Source: a virus. From it: DNA of 27,710 nt. The translations under genes were made by a program, and so were the position numbers. The DNA lies in IMG/VR virus record IMGVR_UViG_3300046010_008436, positions 1 through 27,710 of that record; one strand, 5' to 3'. Within the stretch, counting starts at the first letter, position 1. Each line of letters begins with the position of its first letter. Under the pieces are notes generated by a model that was given only the letters and a program-made list of their open reading frames with translations, did not search any database and was not told where the DNA came from. This document shows, piece by piece, positions 1,595 through 27,058 of the stretch.

Positions 1595-2473
1595 TTACTG
1601 ATCGATTGTATACGTTAATGTTTGAATATAATCTGATAATCTCTTAACAGCTTTCCATCCTAATTTATTATACGTTTCTTCCACATTACATAATGTATGC
1701 ATACCCTCTCCTTTACGTAAAGGAGTGAATGTAATGTTACTAGCAACTCCTTTAGTTATCATCATTGCCAAATCAATAATCTTAACTGGCTCTCCTCGTC
1801 CTAAATCAAAATTATCTCCTTTCCAATTACCTTCAGATATTTTAATAAGTCCTTCTACTATATCAGATACATGAGTAAAGTCTCGAGACTGTTGTCCGTC
1901 TCCTACAATTGTAATAGCATCGCCATCTTCATATTGACGAGAAAACTTGGCTACTACAGTTGCAAATTCTCCTTCTCTAGGTTCTCTAAGACCATATACA
2001 TTATAAAACGTTGCCATTGCAGTATTCATATTATATAATTCTGCATACATTTTTACTGCATCTTCGCCAACCACCTTTGAAAATGTATATGGAGTAATTA
2101 AATGCGATCCATGATTTTTAGATGATGTAGTAGCATATACAAATGATTTACAATTATTTCGTCTCGCAAAGTCTAACACATTAACCGTGCCCATTGCATT
2201 ATTAAAAAACCATTCTGCTGGGTAGTCAAAGGATGGCTGTATTCGCCCATGGGCAGCCAAATGAAATATTACATCAAACTCAATCCCATTATATACAGCA
2301 TCAATATTATCAATGCTTGTATATGAATATATAGCTTTAGAATTTGCATATTCCGTTGATGACGATATTGATGACAAATCATCAATAACATGTACATCAT
2401 GATTTAACTCTACTAATCGATCTACTAAATTAGATCCTACAAACCCAGCTCCGCCTGTTACTAATACTTTCAT
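1595..2473 (-). CDS. NAD-dependent epimerase/dehydratase (extended SDR)
   Basis: A 292-residue extended short-chain dehydrogenase that probably acts on a nucleotide sugar by 4-epimerisation, dehydration or reduction. Visible hallmarks are the Rossmann glycine motif GGAGFVGS (7-14), the NAD-binding DD (31-32), HLAA (71-74), the catalytic Ser region ATTSS (114-118) and the Tyr-Lys pair YTFSK (129-133). A C-terminal substrate-binding part carries FYNVYGLREP and a DFTHVSDIV block typical of GalE/WbpP-like epimerases. The length is slightly short for the family (about 310-340). It is the last gene of the sugar island and begins two bases upstream of nothing but a GT2 stop, so it is probably translated from the same message. 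The exact substrate cannot be read from the sequence. It could supply an epimerised precursor for either sugar route. Confidence 0.9.
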   Translation of the reverse strand: MKVLVTGGAGFVGSNLVDRLVELNHDVHVIDDLSSISSSTEYANSKAIYSYTSIDNIDAVYNGIEFDVIFHLAAHGRIQPSFDYPAEWFFNNAMGTVNVLDFARRNNCKSFVYATTSSKNHGSHLITPYTFSKVVGEDAVKMYAELYNMNTAMATFYNVYGLREPREGEFATVVAKFSRQYEDGDAITIVGDGQQSRDFTHVSDIVEGLIKISEGNWKGDNFDLGRGEPVKIIDLAMMITKGVASNITFTPLRKGEGMHTLCNVEETYNKLGWKAVKRLSDYIQTLTYTIDQ

Positions 2474-2474
2474 G

Positions 2475-3656
2475 TTATAATTTAATTAAGGTATGATCAT
2501 ATGTTTCTAAACTATTAACTATGATAGTTAAATAATCGACATTAAACTCTCCTATATCATTTGTATCCGTTATTAGATCAGATATATTTTGTAATAAATA
2601 AAATGTCTGATCAGTAATTCTATTAGCATCAAACACTACTACAACGTCATTCTCACCTTCAGGATAATTGTTACCAATATATAAAACTCTTTTTTGTAAA
2701 TCATATGAAGTATTCGATTGCTCTATTTCTATATAATCATGCGCTCTACCATTATTAAGCATTTCATCTACATATATTCTATCACACCATGGTTCTAAAG
2801 CTGCTAATAAAGATAGATTACAATTTTTTACTACAAATGCAATATTTCGCTTATGAGGCACAATTGGCATCATTAAATTTGAATGCTTAACATTTGATCC
2901 CCATTTTCTAATAAAATCCTTTGTGGAATTGCTCATTTCTTTTTTCCAAGCTTCGTGTCTAGCTTCATCACCATCAAATGACCCTGCTCCCCGACCCGTT
3001 AAATGATATACTAAAGAATTCCATGGCTGAATGAATTCATATCCAGCTAAAAACATCCTATTAAATACATCTGAGTCTTCTCTACAAGATTTTAAAATTG
3101 GATCATGTCCTCCAATATGCATAAAATCTTTTTTATACATCATCCACGGAGCAAATACTCCATTAGTTATTTTTGTATCAGTTAACTGATTTTTTACATA
3201 CTCGTTAAATTCATCTTTCTTCCACTCCTCGGGCCAGATACCAAAATCAATTAGAATTTTTTCTCCGGCATTCGGATGTAATGGAGGTTCGATCCTAGTA
3301 GCGCACACTACGGTTTTTTCTTTTAAATGATTATATGCTTTGAGATCAGCATCAATACCTAACATCATATCAGCGTGAAATATCATAAAGATATCCGTAG
3401 TCGATTGTTCGACACAATAATCATATGCCTTTCCAATGCCGTATAATCGTTTTCCTAAGTCAGGATTAACAAAGTATTTTACATTATATTCATCTTTAAC
3501 TGAATCTAGCCAATCGACAGTGCCGTCTTCATCACTATCAACAAACACAATTATATCATGATCTTTTCTATAAGCATTTTCTCTTATAGAAGGTATACAT
3601 GTTTTAAGATATCGTAAGTTCGACTTACTAGGTATACAAAAAGTTATTTTATTCAT
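2475..3656 (-). CDS. Glycosyltransferase family 2 with extra C-terminal domain
   Basis: A GT-A fold sugar transferase of 393 residues. The N-terminal half shows the GT2 pattern: KITFCIPSK at the start, VFVDSDEDGT (about 38-47), and a DxD-like segment HADMML near 100-105 that would bind the NDP-sugar and metal. A GGHDPILKSCREDSDVF block follows, typical of GT2 proteins that see an Asp/Glu acid-base pair. The last ~110 residues look like a separate alpha/beta domain of unknown role. I chose ATG at 3656 because it gives only an 8-base overlap with the upstream gene and starts right at the conserved KITFC strand. The longer frame would need a TTG at 3677. It is clearly paralogous to the GT2 at 14957-15853. 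Confidence 0.88.
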   Translation of the reverse strand: MNKITFCIPSKSNLRYLKTCIPSIRENAYRKDHDIIVFVDSDEDGTVDWLDSVKDEYNVKYFVNPDLGKRLYGIGKAYDYCVEQSTTDIFMIFHADMMLGIDADLKAYNHLKEKTVVCATRIEPPLHPNAGEKILIDFGIWPEEWKKDEFNEYVKNQLTDTKITNGVFAPWMMYKKDFMHIGGHDPILKSCREDSDVFNRMFLAGYEFIQPWNSLVYHLTGRGAGSFDGDEARHEAWKKEMSNSTKDFIRKWGSNVKHSNLMMPIVPHKRNIAFVVKNCNLSLLAALEPWCDRIYVDEMLNNGRAHDYIEIEQSNTSYDLQKRVLYIGNNYPEGENDVVVVFDANRITDQTFYLLQNISDLITDTNDIGEFNVDYLTIIVNSLETYDHTLIKL

Positions 3657-4377
3657 TGTTATTAATATTAGATGCAATTAAGGTTTTAAATTTTGTAGTC
3701 GACCAATCATGGCTTCTATCGATATAATGTACGTTAATATCTAAGTCATCGCCCGTAAAAGATTTATTGATATAGTCACTTCCTTGAAATCGTATATCGT
3801 AATGATTGTTCGATAATAGCGTATATAAATCATTTTCAGTTTCATATACAATCACATCATCGACAAAACGTAATGATTTTAATGTATTAACACGATCATT
3901 TATAGATAGAATAGGTTTTATTTTTGAACTTCTTTCTATAGAAGGGTCTGAATGAAGAAGTACTGTTAAGTGAGTGCAATATTTACTTGTTTCTTGAAAC
4001 ATATGCACATAGCCTGGATGTATTACATCAAACGCGCCTGCAATTACTCCGAGAATTGAATTCTTTTTAAACGTGTCGACAGTTATATTTTTATCATCTA
4101 CAAAAATATCATATGAAGGTTTTCCTAAAATCAATTCATGATATTTTACATTCCACGAATCCAATTGATTCTTTGCATGGATATAATGAACGTTATAAAC
4201 TTTATGTATATCTCCATTATACTGTCCCATTCCTCGTGCAGTAAATATTTTAATGGTATGTCCCTCATTATATAATTGATTAATGGATTCGATTACATAA
4301 TAATCGGGAATAGAAGAATTATAATCTTTATTATTTGTAATACATATTGTATTATCTAAATCAAAACAGTATATCAT
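3649..4377 (-). CDS. Fused HAD phosphatase / sugar nucleotidyltransferase
   Basis: A 242-residue two-domain enzyme. Residues 1-100 are a HAD phosphatase like capsule proteins BcbF/EcbF: FDLDNT (5-10, with nucleophile D6 and D8), FTARGM (45-50), and K86 with VDD (93-95). Residues 108-235 are a cytidylyltransferase-fold domain, as in TagD or the C-terminal half of HldE: GAFDVIHPGY (114-123), SINDR (158-162) and the late STTKF (226-230). The usual HxGH reads HPGY, so its last histidine is tyrosine. Placed directly after a GmhA-like isomerase and HddA-like kinase, it could do the GmhB-like dephosphorylation and the nucleotidyl transfer of NDP-heptose synthesis. ATG at 4377 overlaps the upstream stop as ATGA, favouring it over ATG at 4410. 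Whether ATP, CTP or GTP is used is unknown. Confidence 0.87.
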   Translation of the reverse strand: MIYCFDLDNTICITNNKDYNSSIPDYYVIESINQLYNEGHTIKIFTARGMGQYNGDIHKVYNVHYIHAKNQLDSWNVKYHELILGKPSYDIFVDDKNITVDTFKKNSILGVIAGAFDVIHPGYVHMFQETSKYCTHLTVLLHSDPSIERSSKIKPILSINDRVNTLKSLRFVDDVIVYETENDLYTLLSNNHYDIRFQGSDYINKSFTGDDLDINVHYIDRSHDWSTTKFKTLIASNINNNE

Positions 4378-4874
4378 ATTATTGAGTGTAATATTAACTC
4401 GTGTATACATTCTACAATCCCATAGTCACTGCTATCAACATAAAAACTTAACAATGACTTCTCCGTAAAATTAATATTTAGTTTATTGGTATTTGAAAAC
4501 CCTGATAATATTATGATAGGAATATTATTTTCTATACAATATTGCGCCGCATTTAATATGTTAGCAGAGTTTCCTGAAGATGATATTAGTATAACTAATG
4601 TTTGCTCAGTCGTAAAATGCTCAATATATTTAGCGTACGCACTATCCCATCCATAATCATTTGCATAACAACTCATTCGTGCAGAATCTCCAAAACATAA
4701 CGCTCGCTTACCTAACGCTTTTGTATAATCTTCGGCAATATGACAACTGATTGCATTGCTGCCGCCATTGCCTAAGATTATAATATCATGATAGCTATCT
4801 ATGATAGACTTTAATTTATCTAAATCATCTTGCGATATTCTATCTAAACAATGTTTATACGTATTTAGTATCAT
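4374..4874 (-). CDS. gmhA: SIS-domain isomerase, GmhA-like (sedoheptulose 7-phosphate isomerase)
   Basis: A 166-residue single SIS domain. GmhA converts D-sedoheptulose 7-phosphate into D-glycero-D-manno-heptose 7-phosphate, the first step of nucleotide-heptose synthesis. Visible signatures are the phosphate-binding GNGGS (35-39), then HIAED with E48 in the place of the GmhA catalytic glutamate, the second phosphate loop ISSSGNS (97-103), and a C-terminal ECIHEL (155-160) with H158 in the place of the catalytic histidine. It is a little shorter than E. coli GmhA (192). It overlaps the kinase upstream by 20 bases and the phosphatase/nucleotidyltransferase downstream by 4, so the three are presumably made together. 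A different ketose-phosphate substrate cannot be excluded. Confidence 0.88.
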   Translation of the reverse strand: MILNTYKHCLDRISQDDLDKLKSIIDSYHDIIILGNGGSNAISCHIAEDYTKALGKRALCFGDSARMSCYANDYGWDSAYAKYIEHFTTEQTLVILISSSGNSANILNAAQYCIENNIPIIILSGFSNTNKLNINFTEKSLLSFYVDSSDYGIVECIHELILHSII

Positions 4875-5823
4875 ATAAGTTAGTTGTAGTTAATCCATTA
4901 TTGGATATATGAATTTTATTTACATTAATATATGAATTTCTTATGATAGATTCTTTATCTTTTTCAGTAAATATTAAAAAGTATCCGCCATTACCAGCTC
5001 CTAATAACTTATGCGATAGTACATTAGGATCGTTAATTAATTTATTATCTAAGTCGATTAATAATTCATTTTTGCAAATATATTTTGAAGTTTCTTTTTT
5101 ATTCGACCATGTTCTATTAATAACTGTATGGAATAGATTTAAATCTGACGTGTTAATTGCCGATTCTAAATCTTCTACATCTTTAAGTAATGGGACTGAC
5201 TTATCAATATCTAGGCTTTCTAATACCGTCGTTGAACTGCGTAGAACCCCTGTATATATAAGATACATATCTAGCTGATTAAATATATTAGCGCTCAGAT
5301 ACCTAATTTCTGGGTCTTGATTATTATAAAATCTAATCTTTTTCAATCCACCCATCGAGCCATAAAAGTCTTGTTGACCGACTAATGGATTAAACGTTTT
5401 TTCAATCTTTTCAGCTAATTTACATACTTCAAATTCTGTAATATGTTCATTTCTTAATGCGTATATCGATTTAATTAAAGCTAATAAATATGCCGATGAA
5501 GAAGCTAATCCAGACCCTGCAGAAAATACATCTGAGGTCATAAAACAATTAAGATGTTCTACATTAAGATAGTCAAAACAGTTACGTACTAACTCATTTT
5601 CAATATCATATATATTATATACCGATTCTCTTTTAGAATAGTTAATAATATATTTCTTATCTAATGAAGTTGCTCCAAATATGTCTTGATGTAAAGTAAT
5701 ATACGTATGTAAGTTAGAAGCAAAACTAATTACGGCCCCAGCTCCATATTTTGATAAAAATTTAGGATGATCTGTAGAGCCTCCTACAAGAGATATTCTT
5801 AAAGGGCAAGCAGTTATTATCAT
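4855..5823 (-). CDS. hddA: GHMP kinase, HddA-like (heptose 7-phosphate kinase)
   Basis: A 322-residue GHMP-family sugar kinase. HddA phosphorylates D-glycero-alpha-D-manno-heptose 7-phosphate at C1 using ATP, feeding GDP-heptose synthesis. The N-terminal PLRISLVGGSTDHP (7-20) is the characteristic opening of HddA-type kinases (PLRISFxGGGTD). The ATP-binding GHMP loop SAGSGLASSSA (101-111) and the third GHMP motif LLGAGNGGYF near 275-285 are both intact. Length is normal for the family. It starts with an ATGA overlap on the preceding glycosyltransferase-like gene and is followed by the GmhA-like gene. Fucokinase-type proteins share the fold, but the GmhA neighbour makes the heptose role the best reading. 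Confidence 0.88.
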   Translation of the reverse strand: MIITACPLRISLVGGSTDHPKFLSKYGAGAVISFASNLHTYITLHQDIFGATSLDKKYIINYSKRESVYNIYDIENELVRNCFDYLNVEHLNCFMTSDVFSAGSGLASSSAYLLALIKSIYALRNEHITEFEVCKLAEKIEKTFNPLVGQQDFYGSMGGLKKIRFYNNQDPEIRYLSANIFNQLDMYLIYTGVLRSSTTVLESLDIDKSVPLLKDVEDLESAINTSDLNLFHTVINRTWSNKKETSKYICKNELLIDLDNKLINDPNVLSHKLLGAGNGGYFLIFTEKDKESIIRNSYINVNKIHISNNGLTTTNLYDTKYV

Positions 5824-6698
5824 TTAGAATTAAAAATACGTGTAAGACTTTCGTTGGCAATTGATCTCATTAGATTGTCTAATTTTTGAGATGCAATTTG
5901 TTGTTCTGTAGTTTTAGTATGATTAACTCTTTTCAGCGTATGTGATGTATTATGTCCCTTGAGATAATATGCTATACTATATAACGGAACTTTCTTAATA
6001 TTACAGTAATTATAAAAATACGTGTCTTCTCCGCACATATGTATTTTAGGATCAATAAAAGGCGTAGGCATACCTGGACTTAAACAAATCAACGCCCCGT
6101 CTCCTTTATAGTAATCTGATAGCACTATTTGTTGCATATCAGAAAAACTATCATTAAACTTATTAAGCTCGTCTATTGTTAAAATGCCTTCGCCAGTTAC
6201 GAATTTATTATTAATAGATCGTACTTGTTCTATAGTAAATATTTGCAACGCTTCATGCTCTACTGGAGTCCATGAACTATCCCACATTTTTTTCTGTCTA
6301 ATGTTAACAATAAATGGATATTGTAATTGTGGTATATTAAAAATATTTTCGATATACTTGAAGTACGTTTCAGAAACTAGGCAATCTGACTCACCCCATA
6401 TTGTTATATTTTCTGGATCGTAACAATCTCGTCTCCAGTCACCGACTCCATAAAAATCATCTGTATCTTTTTTCCATATAATTTCCGCGCGTTGAACTAA
6501 ACTATCTTTCAATAAAATATCAAACATTTCTTCCGTAGTACCGTTAATAGGAGTATCGTAGTATGTTTGAGCATTAAAACATAACTTAATTTGCACGGGA
6601 TATGTTGTATGTTTCATTGCCGCTTCCACTGACTTTAGCGTTTCTAATGCCATTTCAGTTTCAAACCAAGCAACGTGCATTTGATATACAATATACAT
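5820..6698 (-). CDS. Putative glycosyltransferase, GT-A-like
   Basis: A 292-residue soluble protein that I read as a divergent GT-A glycosyltransferase. It opens with a strand (MYIVYQMHVAWF), then alternating helices and strands. The string WGESDCLV (101-108) sits where GT2-type enzymes carry DxD, and a CGEDTYFYNYC block near 233-243 resembles the C-terminal acidic motif of such enzymes. Conserved Trp/Tyr-rich segments (DWRRDCYDP near 87-95) suggest a defined substrate pocket. There is no signal peptide or membrane segment. It lies between two sugar genes with a 7-base gap upstream and an ATGA overlap downstream, so a role in the same glycan is likely. The family assignment is tentative. Confidence 0.7.
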   Translation of the reverse strand: MYIVYQMHVAWFETEMALETLKSVEAAMKHTTYPVQIKLCFNAQTYYDTPINGTTEEMFDILLKDSLVQRAEIIWKKDTDDFYGVGDWRRDCYDPENITIWGESDCLVSETYFKYIENIFNIPQLQYPFIVNIRQKKMWDSSWTPVEHEALQIFTIEQVRSINNKFVTGEGILTIDELNKFNDSFSDMQQIVLSDYYKGDGALICLSPGMPTPFIDPKIHMCGEDTYFYNYCNIKKVPLYSIAYYLKGHNTSHTLKRVNHTKTTEQQIASQKLDNLMRSIANESLTRIFNSK

Positions 6699-13997: not shown

Positions 13998-14960
13998 TTA
14001 TTTTAATTTATTAATATCATTTAAAACCATAATTTCTACTAATTCTGAAAAACTGGTTTTTGGGTTCCATCCTAAATTAGTACTAGCTTTAGTATAATCT
14101 CCCTTTAAAACGTCAACTTCAGCGGGCCTCATGAATTTCGGATCTTGTTTAATATAAGGCTCCCAATTGGATATTCCTATAACTTTAAATGCCTCATCTA
14201 AAAATTCTCTAATAGATCTAGTTTCGTTAGTAGCGATTACATAATCATCAGGAGTGTCTTGTTGTAGCATTAGCCACATAGCTTCTACATAATCCGGAGC
14301 GTATCCCCAATCTCTTTTTGCATCTAAATTACCTAATGTAATATGGTCTGCTAATCCTAAATGAATTCTAGCTACGCCGTCTGATATTTTTCTAGTAACA
14401 AATTCTATACCTCTTCTTTCACTTTCGTGATTAAACAAAATGCCGCTACAAGCAAACATATCATATGACTCACGATAGTTTTTAGTTATCCAATGACCAT
14501 ATAATTTTGCTACTCCATAAGGACTTCTAGGATAAAATGGCGTAGACTCGCTAGCCGGATTTTCGACCATTCTACCAAACATTTCAGAACTAGATGCTTG
14601 ATAAAATTTAATTTTAGGATTATACTCTCTTATAGCTTCTAATATACGTAATACTCCTAAACCAGTAACTTCAGAAGTATGTTCAGGCGTTTGCCAACTT
14701 TGGCCTACAAATGACTGAGCGGCTAAGTTATAAACTTCATCTGGATTAGTTTCTTTAAGTAATCTAAGTAAACTATTTTGATCTGTTAAATCGCCATCTA
14801 CAAATGTAATTTTATCTTCTAAATGCGCTGTATTAGTACGTTGCTTAGATGAACTCCTACGTTCCATGCCATATACAGTATATCCTTTTGTTAATAAAAA
14901 ATCAGCTAAATGGCTACCATCCATACCATTTATGCCTGTAATTAATGCTGTCTTACTCAT
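13998..14960 (-). CDS. gmd: GDP-mannose 4,6-dehydratase
   Basis: A 320-residue extended SDR that converts GDP-D-mannose to GDP-4-keto-6-deoxy-D-mannose in the cytoplasm. The sequence shows ALITGINGMDGSHL (5-18) for NADP(H), GDLTD (56-60), the GMD-type NLAAQSFVG (78-86), ASSSEMFG (122-129), SPYGVAK (146-152, with Tyr148 and Lys152), and the family-specific LFNHESERRG (175-184) and LGNLDAKRDWGYAPDYVEAM region. All key residues are present and the length is near the lower end of normal (about 320-370). It overlaps the preceding GT2 gene as ATGA. The product is the ColD substrate and the ColD-like enzyme is in the same run, so the two likely form a pathway. GDP-mannose would come from the host. 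Confidence 0.96.
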   Translation of the reverse strand: MSKTALITGINGMDGSHLADFLLTKGYTVYGMERRSSSKQRTNTAHLEDKITFVDGDLTDQNSLLRLLKETNPDEVYNLAAQSFVGQSWQTPEHTSEVTGLGVLRILEAIREYNPKIKFYQASSSEMFGRMVENPASESTPFYPRSPYGVAKLYGHWITKNYRESYDMFACSGILFNHESERRGIEFVTRKISDGVARIHLGLADHITLGNLDAKRDWGYAPDYVEAMWLMLQQDTPDDYVIATNETRSIREFLDEAFKVIGISNWEPYIKQDPKFMRPAEVDVLKGDYTKASTNLGWNPKTSFSELVEIMVLNDINKLK

Positions 14961-23285: not shown

Positions 23286-23999
23286 TTAAGCAATAGTTAA
23301 TTTAACTAAGAAGTAAGTGGATGAATAATCTGCATTGCTGAAAGTAACACGAGCCAATCCTTTAGAACTCACTTCTAACAATCCAGTTGCGTCTGCATTA
23401 GCTACTAAAATCTCTTTAAACAACTTAGCAGAGAAACATACAGTATCCATATCTGCCGATTGCTTTGTAGCTGTATTAAATACAATACGATTTGTATTCA
23501 CACTTGAGTGATTGATAATAATTTTAGTTTCACCATCTTTACTCTCTACACCAAAGTTATCAGACTCGGGCAAAGCATTTTTAGCTTTGATAAAAGTATT
23601 TGAAAAGTCTTTGTTAAGTTCAATTTGAACCTCAAACTCAGGCAATGACTTCAAATTAGGCACTTGACGAATAACTGACAAATCAGCTAACATATAAGTT
23701 ACATTCGCAGAAGAGTCTTTGAAGTTCACTGAATAAATCTTCTTATCTACCTCTCCATAAGAGATATCAATTTTCTCGTCAACTGCAGTAAGCATTTTCA
23801 ATAATTGAGAAGTTGCATATACTCCTAACTCAGCATCCGAAGAATCAAATTGATTTAGAGTAACCTCTCCAATTACATTTTGGTCTGCGCTAATAAACTT
23901 AGTATTAAGAGTCTTATCCTCTACAACCAATTTAGCACTATCAGTATTCCCTGCCAAATAATAACGATTGACAAACCCGATAAATTTACTTTTTTCCAT
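23286..23999 (-). CDS. 45: Sliding clamp (DNA polymerase processivity factor), gp45-like
   Basis: A 237-residue clamp homologous to T4 gp45 (228), a trimeric ring that tethers DNA polymerase and, in T4, also activates late transcription. The sequence has the expected two-domain clamp layout: N-terminal half with EVTLNQFDSSDAELGVYATSQLLKML (about 45-70) and the CFSAKLFKEILVANADATGLLEVSSKGLARV block in the C-terminal half (about 188-218), which resemble the repeated clamp fold. The gene order with 44 and 62-like genes makes the call firm. It starts with ATG at 23999, two bases after the stop of the small membrane gene. If late transcription depends on it as in T4, other genes may have TATAAATA-like promoters. 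Confidence 0.93.
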   Translation of the reverse strand: MEKSKFIGFVNRYYLAGNTDSAKLVVEDKTLNTKFISADQNVIGEVTLNQFDSSDAELGVYATSQLLKMLTAVDEKIDISYGEVDKKIYSVNFKDSSANVTYMLADLSVIRQVPNLKSLPEFEVQIELNKDFSNTFIKAKNALPESDNFGVESKDGETKIIINHSSVNTNRIVFNTATKQSADMDTVCFSAKLFKEILVANADATGLLEVSSKGLARVTFSNADYSSTYFLVKLTIA

Positions 24000-24182: not shown

Positions 24183-25799
24183 TTAATATTGAGCTTGTTG
24201 TGCATTTTGATTATCCTTTTCATTTGGAATATCTACAATAGCACATTCAGCTGTCATAATCATTGAAGCTACCGAAGCTGCATTTTGCAAAGCAATACGA
24301 GTCACCTTTGTAGGATCAATAATACCTGCCTCAATCAAATTCTCAAACTGCTCTGTCTTTGCATTATAACCATAGTCAGCTTCTCCTGCCAATACATCTC
24401 TGATAATAACAGATCCTTCTACACCTGCATTTGCGCATATCTGACGAATAGGAGCTTCAATTGCCTTACGAATAATTTGAATACCTACTTCTTGATCTTG
24501 ATTAGCAGCTGTCAAAGTTTCTAGATTTTTAGAAGCTCTAATTAAAGCTACCCCGCCGCCAGGGACAATTCCTTCTGCAATTGCAGCACGAGTTGCGTGA
24601 AGTGCATCGTCTACACGATCTTTAATTTCTTTCATTTCAACTTCTGAGCTAGCTCCAATATAAATAATTGCAACGCCTCCTGCTAATTTAGCCAAACGCT
24701 CTTGTAATTTTTCAATCTCATAGTCTGACTTTGAAGTTTCAATTTGATTACGAATTTGTTCAACTCGTTCTACAATAGCATCTTTATCTCCGCTGCCATT
24801 AATAATTGTACAATTATCTTTAGATACAATTACTTTCTCTGCTTGACCTAAATGAGACAATTCAGCATCTTCCAATTTAATGCCTAGCTCATCTAATAAT
24901 ACAGTACCTCCAGTTAAAACTGCAATGTCTTGAAGCATATCTTTTCTACGCTCACCAAATCCAGGAGCCTTAACAGCACATACTTTCAAACCAGCTCTCA
25001 CTCTATTAACTACCAAAGTAGCTAAAGCTTCTGCTTCTACATCTTCTGCAACAATCAAAAGTGGACGTCCAGTGCCTACTGCTGCTTCTAAAATAGATAG
25101 GAAATCTTTCATAGCACTAATCTTCTTATCATAGATCAAGATTAATGGATTTTCCATTTCTACTTCCATCTTCTCTGAATTGGTTACAAAGTAAGGAGAT
25201 AGATAACCTCTATCAAACTGCATACCTTCTACCGTTTTAATTTCAGTGTCAGTACCTTTAGCTTCTTCTACTGTAATAACACCATCAGTGCCAACTACAT
25301 TAATTGCTTCTGCAATCAATTTACCAACAACAGTATCGTTATTAGCTGATACAGTGGCTACTTGCTCAATCTTGTTAATGTCATCACTAACAACTTTAGA
25401 TTGATCCTTCAATCCTGTTACCACATTTGCAACTGCAATATCCATACCACGCTTCATTTCAATAGGATTGATTCCAGTCTCTACTGATTTAATTGCATCT
25501 GTCAAGATAGCCTGAGCTAATACAGTAGCGGTAGTAGTACCGTCGCCTGCTTCATTTGCTGTCTTACTAGCAACTTCCTTAACTAATTGAGCTCCCATAT
25601 TCATCAATGGATCTTCTAACTCAATTTCTTTCGCAACTGAAACACCATCTTTGGTAATTACAGGTGCTCCAAATTTCTTCGCAATTACTACATTACGACC
25701 TTTAGGTCCTAAAGTTACTTTCACTGCGTTTGCCAAAGCGTCGACTCCTTTCTTTAAACCGTCTCGGCTTTCTGAATTAAAATACACTTGTTTTGCCAT
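24183..25799 (-). CDS. groEL: GroEL-type 60-kDa chaperonin
   Basis: A complete 538-residue group I chaperonin. It folds proteins in an ATP-driven double ring, normally with a GroES cap. The nucleotide-binding sequences are intact: [10 protein letters not shown] (28-37), [11 protein letters not shown] (48-58, D51) and [12 protein letters not shown] (85-96, D86), with [18 protein letters not shown] later in the equatorial domain. The apical and hinge blocks ([27 protein letters not shown]) are conserved. The protein resembles Bacteroidota GroEL. The C-terminus ends [22 protein letters not shown] and lacks the usual GGM-rich tail. It begins 2 bases after the TGT-like gene. No GroES gene is visible in the window, so it either uses host GroES or a phage co-chaperonin elsewhere. 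Probably helps fold virion proteins. Confidence 0.97.
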
Positions 25800-25801
25800 A
25801 A

Positions 25802-27058
25802 TTATGATTCTTTTGATTCTTTATTTTTTGATTTTTTAGATTTTTTCTCGTCTACTGGTTGAATAGCGTCAAAGTCAAAATATTCATTTCGTACTTCACG
25901 AGCTACATTCATTACATTTTCACCGCCAAACTTTACATAGAATGGACGATATCTTTCATATACCTGGATTGGATCAGGAGAGTTAAACATCTCTTCCATA
26001 GATCTTAAAATTTGAATTAGATCATTAGGAATCAATTCTGCTAACACTTCTAAAGGACAGCTATTAACTAAATTCTCAACATTCTCTGCAGTGTATACAT
26101 ACATATACAAATTATGATAAGTCAATCGAGTTACAGCTTCTGTCGAATAATTTTCAACAATATCCCAAGTTAAATGAGGCACACCTGGATGATCAATCAA
26201 AGAAGGAACGTGACCTGTCTTAGGATATCCTAATTGACTACCATCCTTAGGGAAGTACAACATATTAAATACTTGATCCTTCCAATTAGGACTCCATACC
26301 ATCTGACCAAATATAGGATATTGACCTGGAGATGAACTATCAGTCGATACAGTAATTCTATTATTGGTTAATTGATTCATCAGCTTTTGCATTTGAGCCA
26401 AAATGAAGAAGTCAGATACTTTAGAAATACCCAATAAGTGAACCCAAGTATTATTAGTCTTCTCGAACTCTTTCTCTTTCAACATCAATGCCAAAATGTA
26501 CATGAAGTCGACTAATCGTCTAGATGAACCAATACACCACCCTCCAAATTGCATATCTTTAACTGTATTGTACCAAGTAGTAAACTCAACAGGGTTTGAA
26601 CCTTGAACTACATTTAAGAAATTAGTCTTACCAGTTTGTTTCTTTTCAAAGTATTTGAAGTTATCCAAACTAATGTCTAATGACTCTTGAAAGCGACCTT
26701 CATAAGTCACTCGAGGAGGAATATCGATATTAGCTGCGATATCTGAATTGTGTTCTAACCATTCAAAAATTCTATCACGTAAAGCCATATCCCATTTCAA
26801 AGCACCAGTTGCAATTTGGAAACCACCAGAGTCTCCAAATACTAAAGTGTCTTGCAATCCCCATGTTTGTCTGATATTATCCTTTTTATACAAGTGACCT
26901 GCGGTCATCAAAAAGTATTTATATCTCCATTTCTCAGGCACACGGTCATCCCAAAATCTATACGGGACACCTGGTGCTACCTCCATATCTTTTGTCAATG
27001 GCGATGCATAAGCGCCTGACGATAATGAAGGGAAGTAAACTAATTTCTTTGCTGTCAT
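25802..27058 (-). CDS. TGT-superfamily protein, possible DpdA-like DNA guanine transglycosylase
   Basis: A 418-residue protein with the core of tRNA-guanine transglycosylases: VFGDSGGFQ (73-81, D76 as the base-contact Asp), ANIDIPPR (109-116) in the second Asp region, LNVVQGS (148-154), [12 protein letters not shown] (169-180), [11 protein letters not shown] (207-217) and VSTDSSSP (237-244), with D240 at the position of the nucleophile. I see no CxCxxC zinc site, which bacterial TGT has. Phage TGT relatives called DpdA insert 7-deazaguanines into DNA to resist restriction, and a viral context favours that reading over tRNA modification. No preQ0 synthesis genes are in the window. The C-terminus ends in a Lys/Ser-rich tail (about 403-418). 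It lies between a glycosyltransferase-like gene and groEL. Confidence 0.8.

Follow-up and report, generated by a model that had tools for sequence, protein, structure and literature searches.

Architecture of the three-gene cassette

The IMG/VR virus record IMGVR_UViG_3300046010_008436, a 27.7 kb genome fragment (27,710 nucleotides, hereafter the window), contains three overlapping minus-strand open reading frames (ORFs) at 3649-5823 that form a candidate cassette for the synthesis of a nucleotide-activated heptose. The three ORFs are intact. The kinase gene (4855-5823) encodes a 322-residue HddA-like GHMP sugar-1-kinase and overlaps by 20 bases the gene of a 166-residue GmhA-like, SIS-fold aldose/ketose phosphate isomerase (4374-4874). 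The third ORF (3649-4410) encodes a HAD phosphatase fused to a nucleotidyltransferase (NT). The isomerase stop codon overlaps an ATG at position 4377 in the sequence ATGA and, because of this overlap and the agreement with the starts of relatives, this ATG rather than the ORF end at 4410 is probably the true start of the fusion. From this start the fusion spans 3649-4377 and comprises 242 residues, with the HAD domain at 4063-4377 and the NT domain at 3652-4050. A sequence-only reading of this DNA had described the same three overlapping genes and the same protein families. Profile searches bear it out with similarities that chance could not produce, since the best families of the kinase and the isomerase are HddA and GmhA, not unrelated GHMP or SIS families, and the HAD and NT matches fall within one ORF.

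Kinase and isomerase active sites

The kinase matches HddA best (7.3e-21), with 75 bits against a cut-off of 600 for the NCBIfam model NF049969. Its closest solved relatives are Campylobacter jejuni HddA (PDB 4n3o, 3.5e-19) and Burkholderia pseudomallei WcbL (PDB 4usm, 3.5e-16). The activity of WcbL is abolished by mutation of Arg-13, Asp-22, Ser-118 to Ser-120, Gln-162 or Asp-163 (PMC4691232). In the HMMER alignment these residues correspond to Arg-9, Asp-18, Ser-108 to Ser-110, Gln-151 and Asp-152 of the phage kinase, all of which are kept. Apart from Ser-108, each is fully or almost fully invariant among 103 phage-type kinases.

The isomerase is matched by the NCBIfam GmhA models at 3e-17 and 1.4e-16 and by PDB GmhA at 5e-13, with 60.9 bits against a cut-off of 209 for TIGR00441. 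Its AlphaFold model, which is of the monomer although the active site lies between subunits, has a pLDDT of 96.5, and the top 37 Foldseek matches of this model are all GmhA or DiaA, with TM-scores of up to 0.87 and the non-enzymatic DiaA equally close. No models or structures other than GmhA-type ones come close to the protein. Assignment to the KdsD/KpsF-type isomerases was rejected, as no KpsF/KdsD model matched at E 0.01 and BLASTP revealed no similarity to a phage KdsD-type protein. HMMER alignments place Escherichia coli GmhA residues His-61, Glu-65, Gln-172 and His-180 at His-45, Asp-49, Glu-155 and His-163 of the phage isomerase. His-45, His-163 and the phosphate-loop serines are kept, while the catalytic Glu-65 is replaced by an Asp that is present in 107 of 107 relatives and Gln-172 is replaced by a Glu. 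C. jejuni GmhA aligns without gaps at the C-terminus, where E. coli Gln-172, His-175 and His-180 coincide with Glu-155, His-158 and His-163. Glu-48 and His-158, named in the sequence-only reading as active-site residues of GmhA, are therefore neighbours of the site and not the site itself. The same reading took the active-site residues that it could recognise to be intact. This is correct for the kinase and HAD motifs, conserved in 103 kinases and 98 fusions, but needs qualifying for the isomerase, owing to the Glu-to-Asp and Gln-to-Glu replacements. Despite both changes the site looks able to bind metal. Two further positions differ: Asp-58 and Arg-69, present in the aligned E. coli, Vibrio cholerae and C. 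jejuni proteins, correspond to Ser-42 and Ala-53.

The phosphatase-nucleotidyltransferase fusion

The HAD domain belongs with the EcbF/BcbF capsule phosphatases (TIGR01689, 2.2e-15; 56.7 bits against a cut-off of 162), and no NCBIfam model of GmhB or histidinol-phosphatase HAD proteins matches it. Asp-17, Asp-19, Lys-97, Asp-105 and Asp-106 (numbering of the 253-residue ORF) are invariant among the fusions, and Thr-57 is present in 97 of 98. The closest solved structure is PDB 9iqw (1.8e-16, 39% identity), which, according to its title, is the D-arabinose 1,5-diphosphate phosphatase AfhF of phage HY126. By that title AfhF acts on an aldose-1,n-bisphosphate, and such chemistry is what the phosphatase step of a heptose route would require.

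This relationship also raises the main rival explanation, in which the cassette would activate another sugar, most likely a pentose, converting D-ribulose 5-phosphate through D-arabinose 5-phosphate, the 1,5-bisphosphate and arabinose 1-phosphate into NDP-arabinose, as in DNA-arabinosylating T4-like phages. Phages of this type, with arabinosyl-hydroxymethylcytosine (ara-hmC) in their DNA, appear to use the same activation logic (PMC6024577). The order of isomerase, bisphosphate, phosphatase and NT chemistry is shared with the T4-like module (AfhF of phage HY126; RB69-type ara-hmC), the HAD domains are 39-45% identical (45% to the HAD of ara-hmC-type T4-like phages), and the sugar-side Asp-58 and Arg-69 of GmhA are not kept in the isomerase. 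However, only the HAD protein is common to both. The isomerase of ara-hmC phages is of the KdsD/KpsF type and bears no similarity to the cassette enzyme, which matches only GmhA/DiaA; their NT is GlmU/RmlA-like and of another family, and their module serves DNA modification. In addition, the cassette kinase matches HddA best, and no dCMP hydroxymethylase or DNA-modifying glycosyltransferase was recognised within the 27.7 kb window. Pentose activation is thus unlikely, and a heptose remains the preferred product.

The NT domain is a CTP_transf_like protein (Pfam PF01467, 6.8e-8). It scores best with HldE domain II (TIGR02199, 5.1e-17; 62 bits against a cut-off of 181.5), followed by TIGR01518 of the TagD/CCT enzymes (2.8e-10; 40 bits against 165), and matches no HddC or NTP_transferase model of Pfam or NCBIfam. 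The signature HPGY, found in 92 of 100 distinct fusions, occupies the place of HxGH in HldE and TagD. Relative to the TagD/CCT signatures HxGH and RTxGISTT, the Arg and STT are present and the second His is replaced by Tyr. The TagD-like Arg that precedes the STT motif in the phage NTs is absent from every HldE compared. Among cytidylyltransferases this Arg leans towards CTP, which makes CTP a plausible nucleotide, although a single residue gives a hint only.

These features bear on a second alternative, that the cassette provides standard ADP- or GDP-heptose for a host pathway, its HAD and NT domains being mere stand-ins for GmhB and HldE/HddC. The GDP-heptose pathway likewise pairs GmhA with HddA (PMC10680097), and the isomerase and anomeric GHMP kinase families, as well as the reaction order, are common to the cassette and the GmhA/HddA systems of C. 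jejuni, Aneurinibacillus and Burkholderia. In contrast to those systems, the phosphatase is of the EcbF/AfhF type instead of GmhB, the NT is CTP_transf_like instead of HddC-type, and the two are fused. The ADP-heptose pathway (GmhA, HldE, GmhB, HldD) similarly shares with the cassette a GmhA-like isomerase, an NT of the HldE-C superfamily, with HldE domain II as its best score, and a protein of the HldD/GalE superfamily; it differs in having a PfkB-type kinase where the cassette has a GHMP kinase, in having GmhB, and in an NT with HxGH and without the TagD-type Arg. Furthermore, HldE-type NTs use the beta-anomer whereas HddA yields the alpha-anomer. A standard pathway is consequently even less probable than pentose activation. 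The CDP-6-D-glucitol pathway of C. jejuni HS:5 (PMC10918830) also has a sugar-phosphate cytidylyltransferase feeding a capsule, but starts from fructose 6-phosphate and includes no isomerase, kinase or HAD protein.

Related proteins occur in other settings. An HPGY-type NT that stands alone and shares 58% identity with the phage domain lies directly after a lapB-like gene (L185:6998-7399; L322:6604-7005), and the gammaproteobacterial metagenome-assembled genome containing L185 gave no SIS match of the cassette isomerase type. In Agathobaculum phage AB434P2 (L005:1314-3836) an EcbF-like HAD and an NT adjoin a deoxyuridylate hydroxymethyltransferase, which suggests that HAD/NT proteins are used there in DNA hypermodification. 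In many T4-like phages, genes labelled 'phosphoheptose isomerase' (PHROG 1238; L303:6007-6366, L304:5992-6372) encode EcbF/AfhF-type HAD phosphatases and no isomerase; the label is wrong and makes GmhA seem commoner in phages than it is.

Conservation of the series in phages and picocyanobacteria

Relatives were collected by profile scans of IMG/VR, with loci taken from the best 80 listed per query, so that the counts of relatives rest on the matches listed. Gene order was counted wherever 2.8 kb or more of sequence followed the kinase gene, a set of 90 distinct kinases of 40% identity or higher. The kinase is followed by the SIS, HAD-NT and SDR genes in 69 of these 90 loci, and by a SIS gene or a SIS-NT fusion in 87. 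The same four genes stand in the same order within a glycan island of the cultured cyanophage SynMITS9220M01 (MT408532), whose kinase, isomerase and fusion are 43%, 39% and 43% identical to those of the window. SynMITS9220M01 lacks the glycosyltransferase (GT) gene that separates the HAD-NT fusion from the SDR in the window, and the rest of its island differs. Its authors called the kinase, isomerase and SDR heptose genes (PMC7378029), naming the last an epimerase, while the fusion is annotated as hypothetical in the record. The 98 distinct fusions together with this cultured isolate rule out an assembly artefact. Upstream of its main cassette, SynMITS9220M01 has another HddA-like kinase with two NT ORFs after it (L002:2388-4391).

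Departures from the series are informative. In the 595 kb phage genome LR756511 (L006, 5983-7359) the kinase is fused directly to an NT, a GHMP-type counterpart of the kinase-NT layout of HldE; no SIS match of the cassette type was found in this genome and no EcbF HAD beside the fusion. The idea that phages lacking EcbF use GmhB instead was rejected, as the TIGR01656 match of LR756511, 7 kb away, is an ORF of P-loop kinase and PNK3P polynucleotide kinase/phosphatase type. SIS-NT fusions occur in L046 and L047, kinase and HAD-NT without SIS in L042 and L043, and a different, HAGH-type NT takes the NT place in L030 and L035. Of the closest relatives of the studied cassette, L010 has only the HAD, and L011 has no HAD or NT on its 20 kb contig. 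These exceptions mark the kinase and isomerase as the core that varies least, with HAD and NT as exchangeable parts. Where a kinase-isomerase pair has no adjoining HAD/NT (L041:6001-7447, L011:5995-7444), the missing steps must be supplied by the host or by other parts of the phage genome. The absence of HAD and NT from some close relatives could also indicate a cassette in decay, or one carried as cargo with no catalytic function. The catalytic residues are, however, intact and remain conserved even among relatives that have diverged strongly, and the stop/start coupling is preserved, making such a fate very improbable.

In cellular genomes, full-length HAD-NT fusions were found in 5 of 300 sampled picocyanobacterial-family genomes, each accompanied by the genes for kinase, SIS and SDR, arranged as in the phages. 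Among the matches listed at E 1e-20, none of full length came from the 398 genomes of Pseudomonadota or the 296 of Bacteroidota, and a wide spread of the fusion in bacteria was rejected on this basis. The picocyanobacterial cassettes lie in chromosomal glycan regions, and several adjoin ORFs that read as ilvC-like and cobD-like. No GmhB/histidinol-phosphatase-type HAD above cut-off was detected in four of the five host genomes, some of which are incomplete, and the fused HAD is therefore the natural candidate for the phosphatase step. In a tree of the concatenated cassette proteins, four of the host sets group in a single clade next to marine phage sequences, and the studied cassette groups with L103 of a 281 kb phage; the long branches make these placements tentative.

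Genomic surroundings

The cassette lies inside a glycan island (approximately 1.6 to 19.2 kb) whose main genes are all on the minus strand. A GT2-family GT (2475-3677, minus strand; Pfam PF00535, 1e-11) separates the fusion from an extended SDR (1595-2473, minus strand) and is kept beside the cassette in L010 and L011. The SDR is GalE/epimerase-like (Pfam Epimerase, 4e-43; PDB UDP-glucose 4-epimerase, 1.3e-32), does not display the Asp-Glu pair of 4,6-dehydratases and is a probable NDP-sugar epimerase. Directly upstream of the kinase, and overlapping its gene by 4 bp, is a likely GT (5820-6698, minus strand). Its product gave no match in Pfam and PHROG searches; counterparts 64-66% identical adjoin the kinase in L010 and L011, and an annotated GT fills this slot in SynMITS9220M01. 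The island further includes GT2 and GT4 GTs, a DegT aminotransferase, an RmlD-like reductase, a sugar C-methyltransferase-type protein and a GDP-mannose 4,6-dehydratase (13998-14960, minus strand). The last scores 428 bits, above the curated equivalog cut-off of 415, and the phage thus likely also makes a GDP-6-deoxyhexose.

The right end of the window carries T4-like replication genes for the gp44 and gp62 clamp loader (PHROGs). An ORF at 23286-23999 occupies the expected gp45 place and gave no match in the PHROG search. The closest gp44 genes, 39-45% identical, are from an uncultured huge phage, a Microcystis phage, Synechococcus/Prochlorococcus phages and Pelagibacter phage HTVC008M. A full-length phage-encoded GroEL (24183-25799, minus strand; PHROG 5725, E 4.6e-171) lies nearby, as does a 418-residue protein (25802-27058, minus strand) with a GDSGGFQ motif, a sub-threshold Pfam TGT match (E 0.075) and only distant jumbo-phage relatives, possibly a DpdA/TGT-type 7-deazaguanine transglycosylase. 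A search for T4-type late promoters (ATAAATA) found 16 where 32 are expected by chance and is therefore uninformative.

A candidate route to an activated heptose

The best-supported reading, to which we assign a probability of about two in three, is that the window carries a phage-mobilised, translationally coupled cassette that supplies the surface-glycan island of the phage itself with activated heptose. The GmhA-like isomerase would convert sedoheptulose 7-phosphate into heptose 7-phosphate, which the GHMP kinase would phosphorylate to heptose 1,7-bisphosphate. The HAD domain would take off the 7-phosphate, and the NT domain would join the resulting heptose 1-phosphate to a nucleotide, with CTP favoured by one residue. 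The nearby SDR would then probably epimerise the NDP-heptose, and flanking GTs would transfer the heptose to a host-surface or virion glycan. A heptose pathway is favoured because HddA and GmhA are the best families of kinase and isomerase, because the residues essential in WcbL are kept and because the order is conserved in the 69 phage loci, SynMITS9220M01 and five picocyanobacterial chromosomes. That the parts belong together is indicated by the Rosetta-stone fusions HAD-NT, kinase-NT and SIS-NT, and a role in glycans by the location inside the island. Homology, gene order, conserved active-site residues and fusions are what the sequences show, and from them we infer the seven-carbon substrate, the nucleotide and the acceptor.

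Several observations weigh against this interpretation. None of the three cassette proteins reaches the curated NCBIfam equivalog cut-off of its family. The nearest solved relative of the HAD domain acts, by its PDB title, on a pentose bisphosphate. The four replacements in the isomerase (Asp-58, Glu-65, Arg-69 and Gln-172 to Ser-42, Asp-49, Ala-53 and Glu-155) mean that sugar recognition may differ from that of GmhA. Finally, the HAD, the NT or both are missing beside the kinase-isomerase pair in the close relatives L010, L011 and L041.

The pathway logic put forward in the sequence-only reading thus stands as the best-supported one, while its GmhB and nucleotidyltransferase steps fall to a HAD that is not GmhB and an NT that is not HddC. 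Its view that such a pathway would be unusual for a phage does not hold, as the cassette is present in a cultured cyanophage and in many IMG/VR contigs, and the immune role it raised finds no support in this analysis. gmhA itself is regarded as a well-characterised marine auxiliary metabolic gene (PMC9238414). The kind of system is therefore already known; what is new is that the fusion is assigned as an EcbF/AfhF-type HAD with an HPGY NT, that the isomerase has a variant site and that the series is conserved, together with the caution over substrate.

A more specific proposal, which we consider doubtful, is a third, mainly phage-borne route in which a GmhA/HddA front end and a single HAD-cytidylyltransferase yield CDP-heptose. 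This route would be separate from those to ADP- and GDP-heptose, and phages would exchange it with picocyanobacteria, organisms whose lipopolysaccharide (LPS) core reportedly lacks heptose. According to a review, cyanobacterial LPS cores are reported to be without heptose (PMC4390846), and the cyanophage and picocyanobacterial cassette is therefore worth a chemical test.

Phage sugar-nucleotide genes are usually listed one by one as 'LPS genes'. Here a whole candidate route, from a sugar of the pentose phosphate pathway to a nucleotide sugar, lies in three coupled genes that keep their order in phages that have diverged widely and in a few cyanobacterial hosts. A HAD group known from phage DNA arabinosylation would be reused in glycan synthesis, and the cassette offers a compact, testable unit for what phages put on their hosts or virions.

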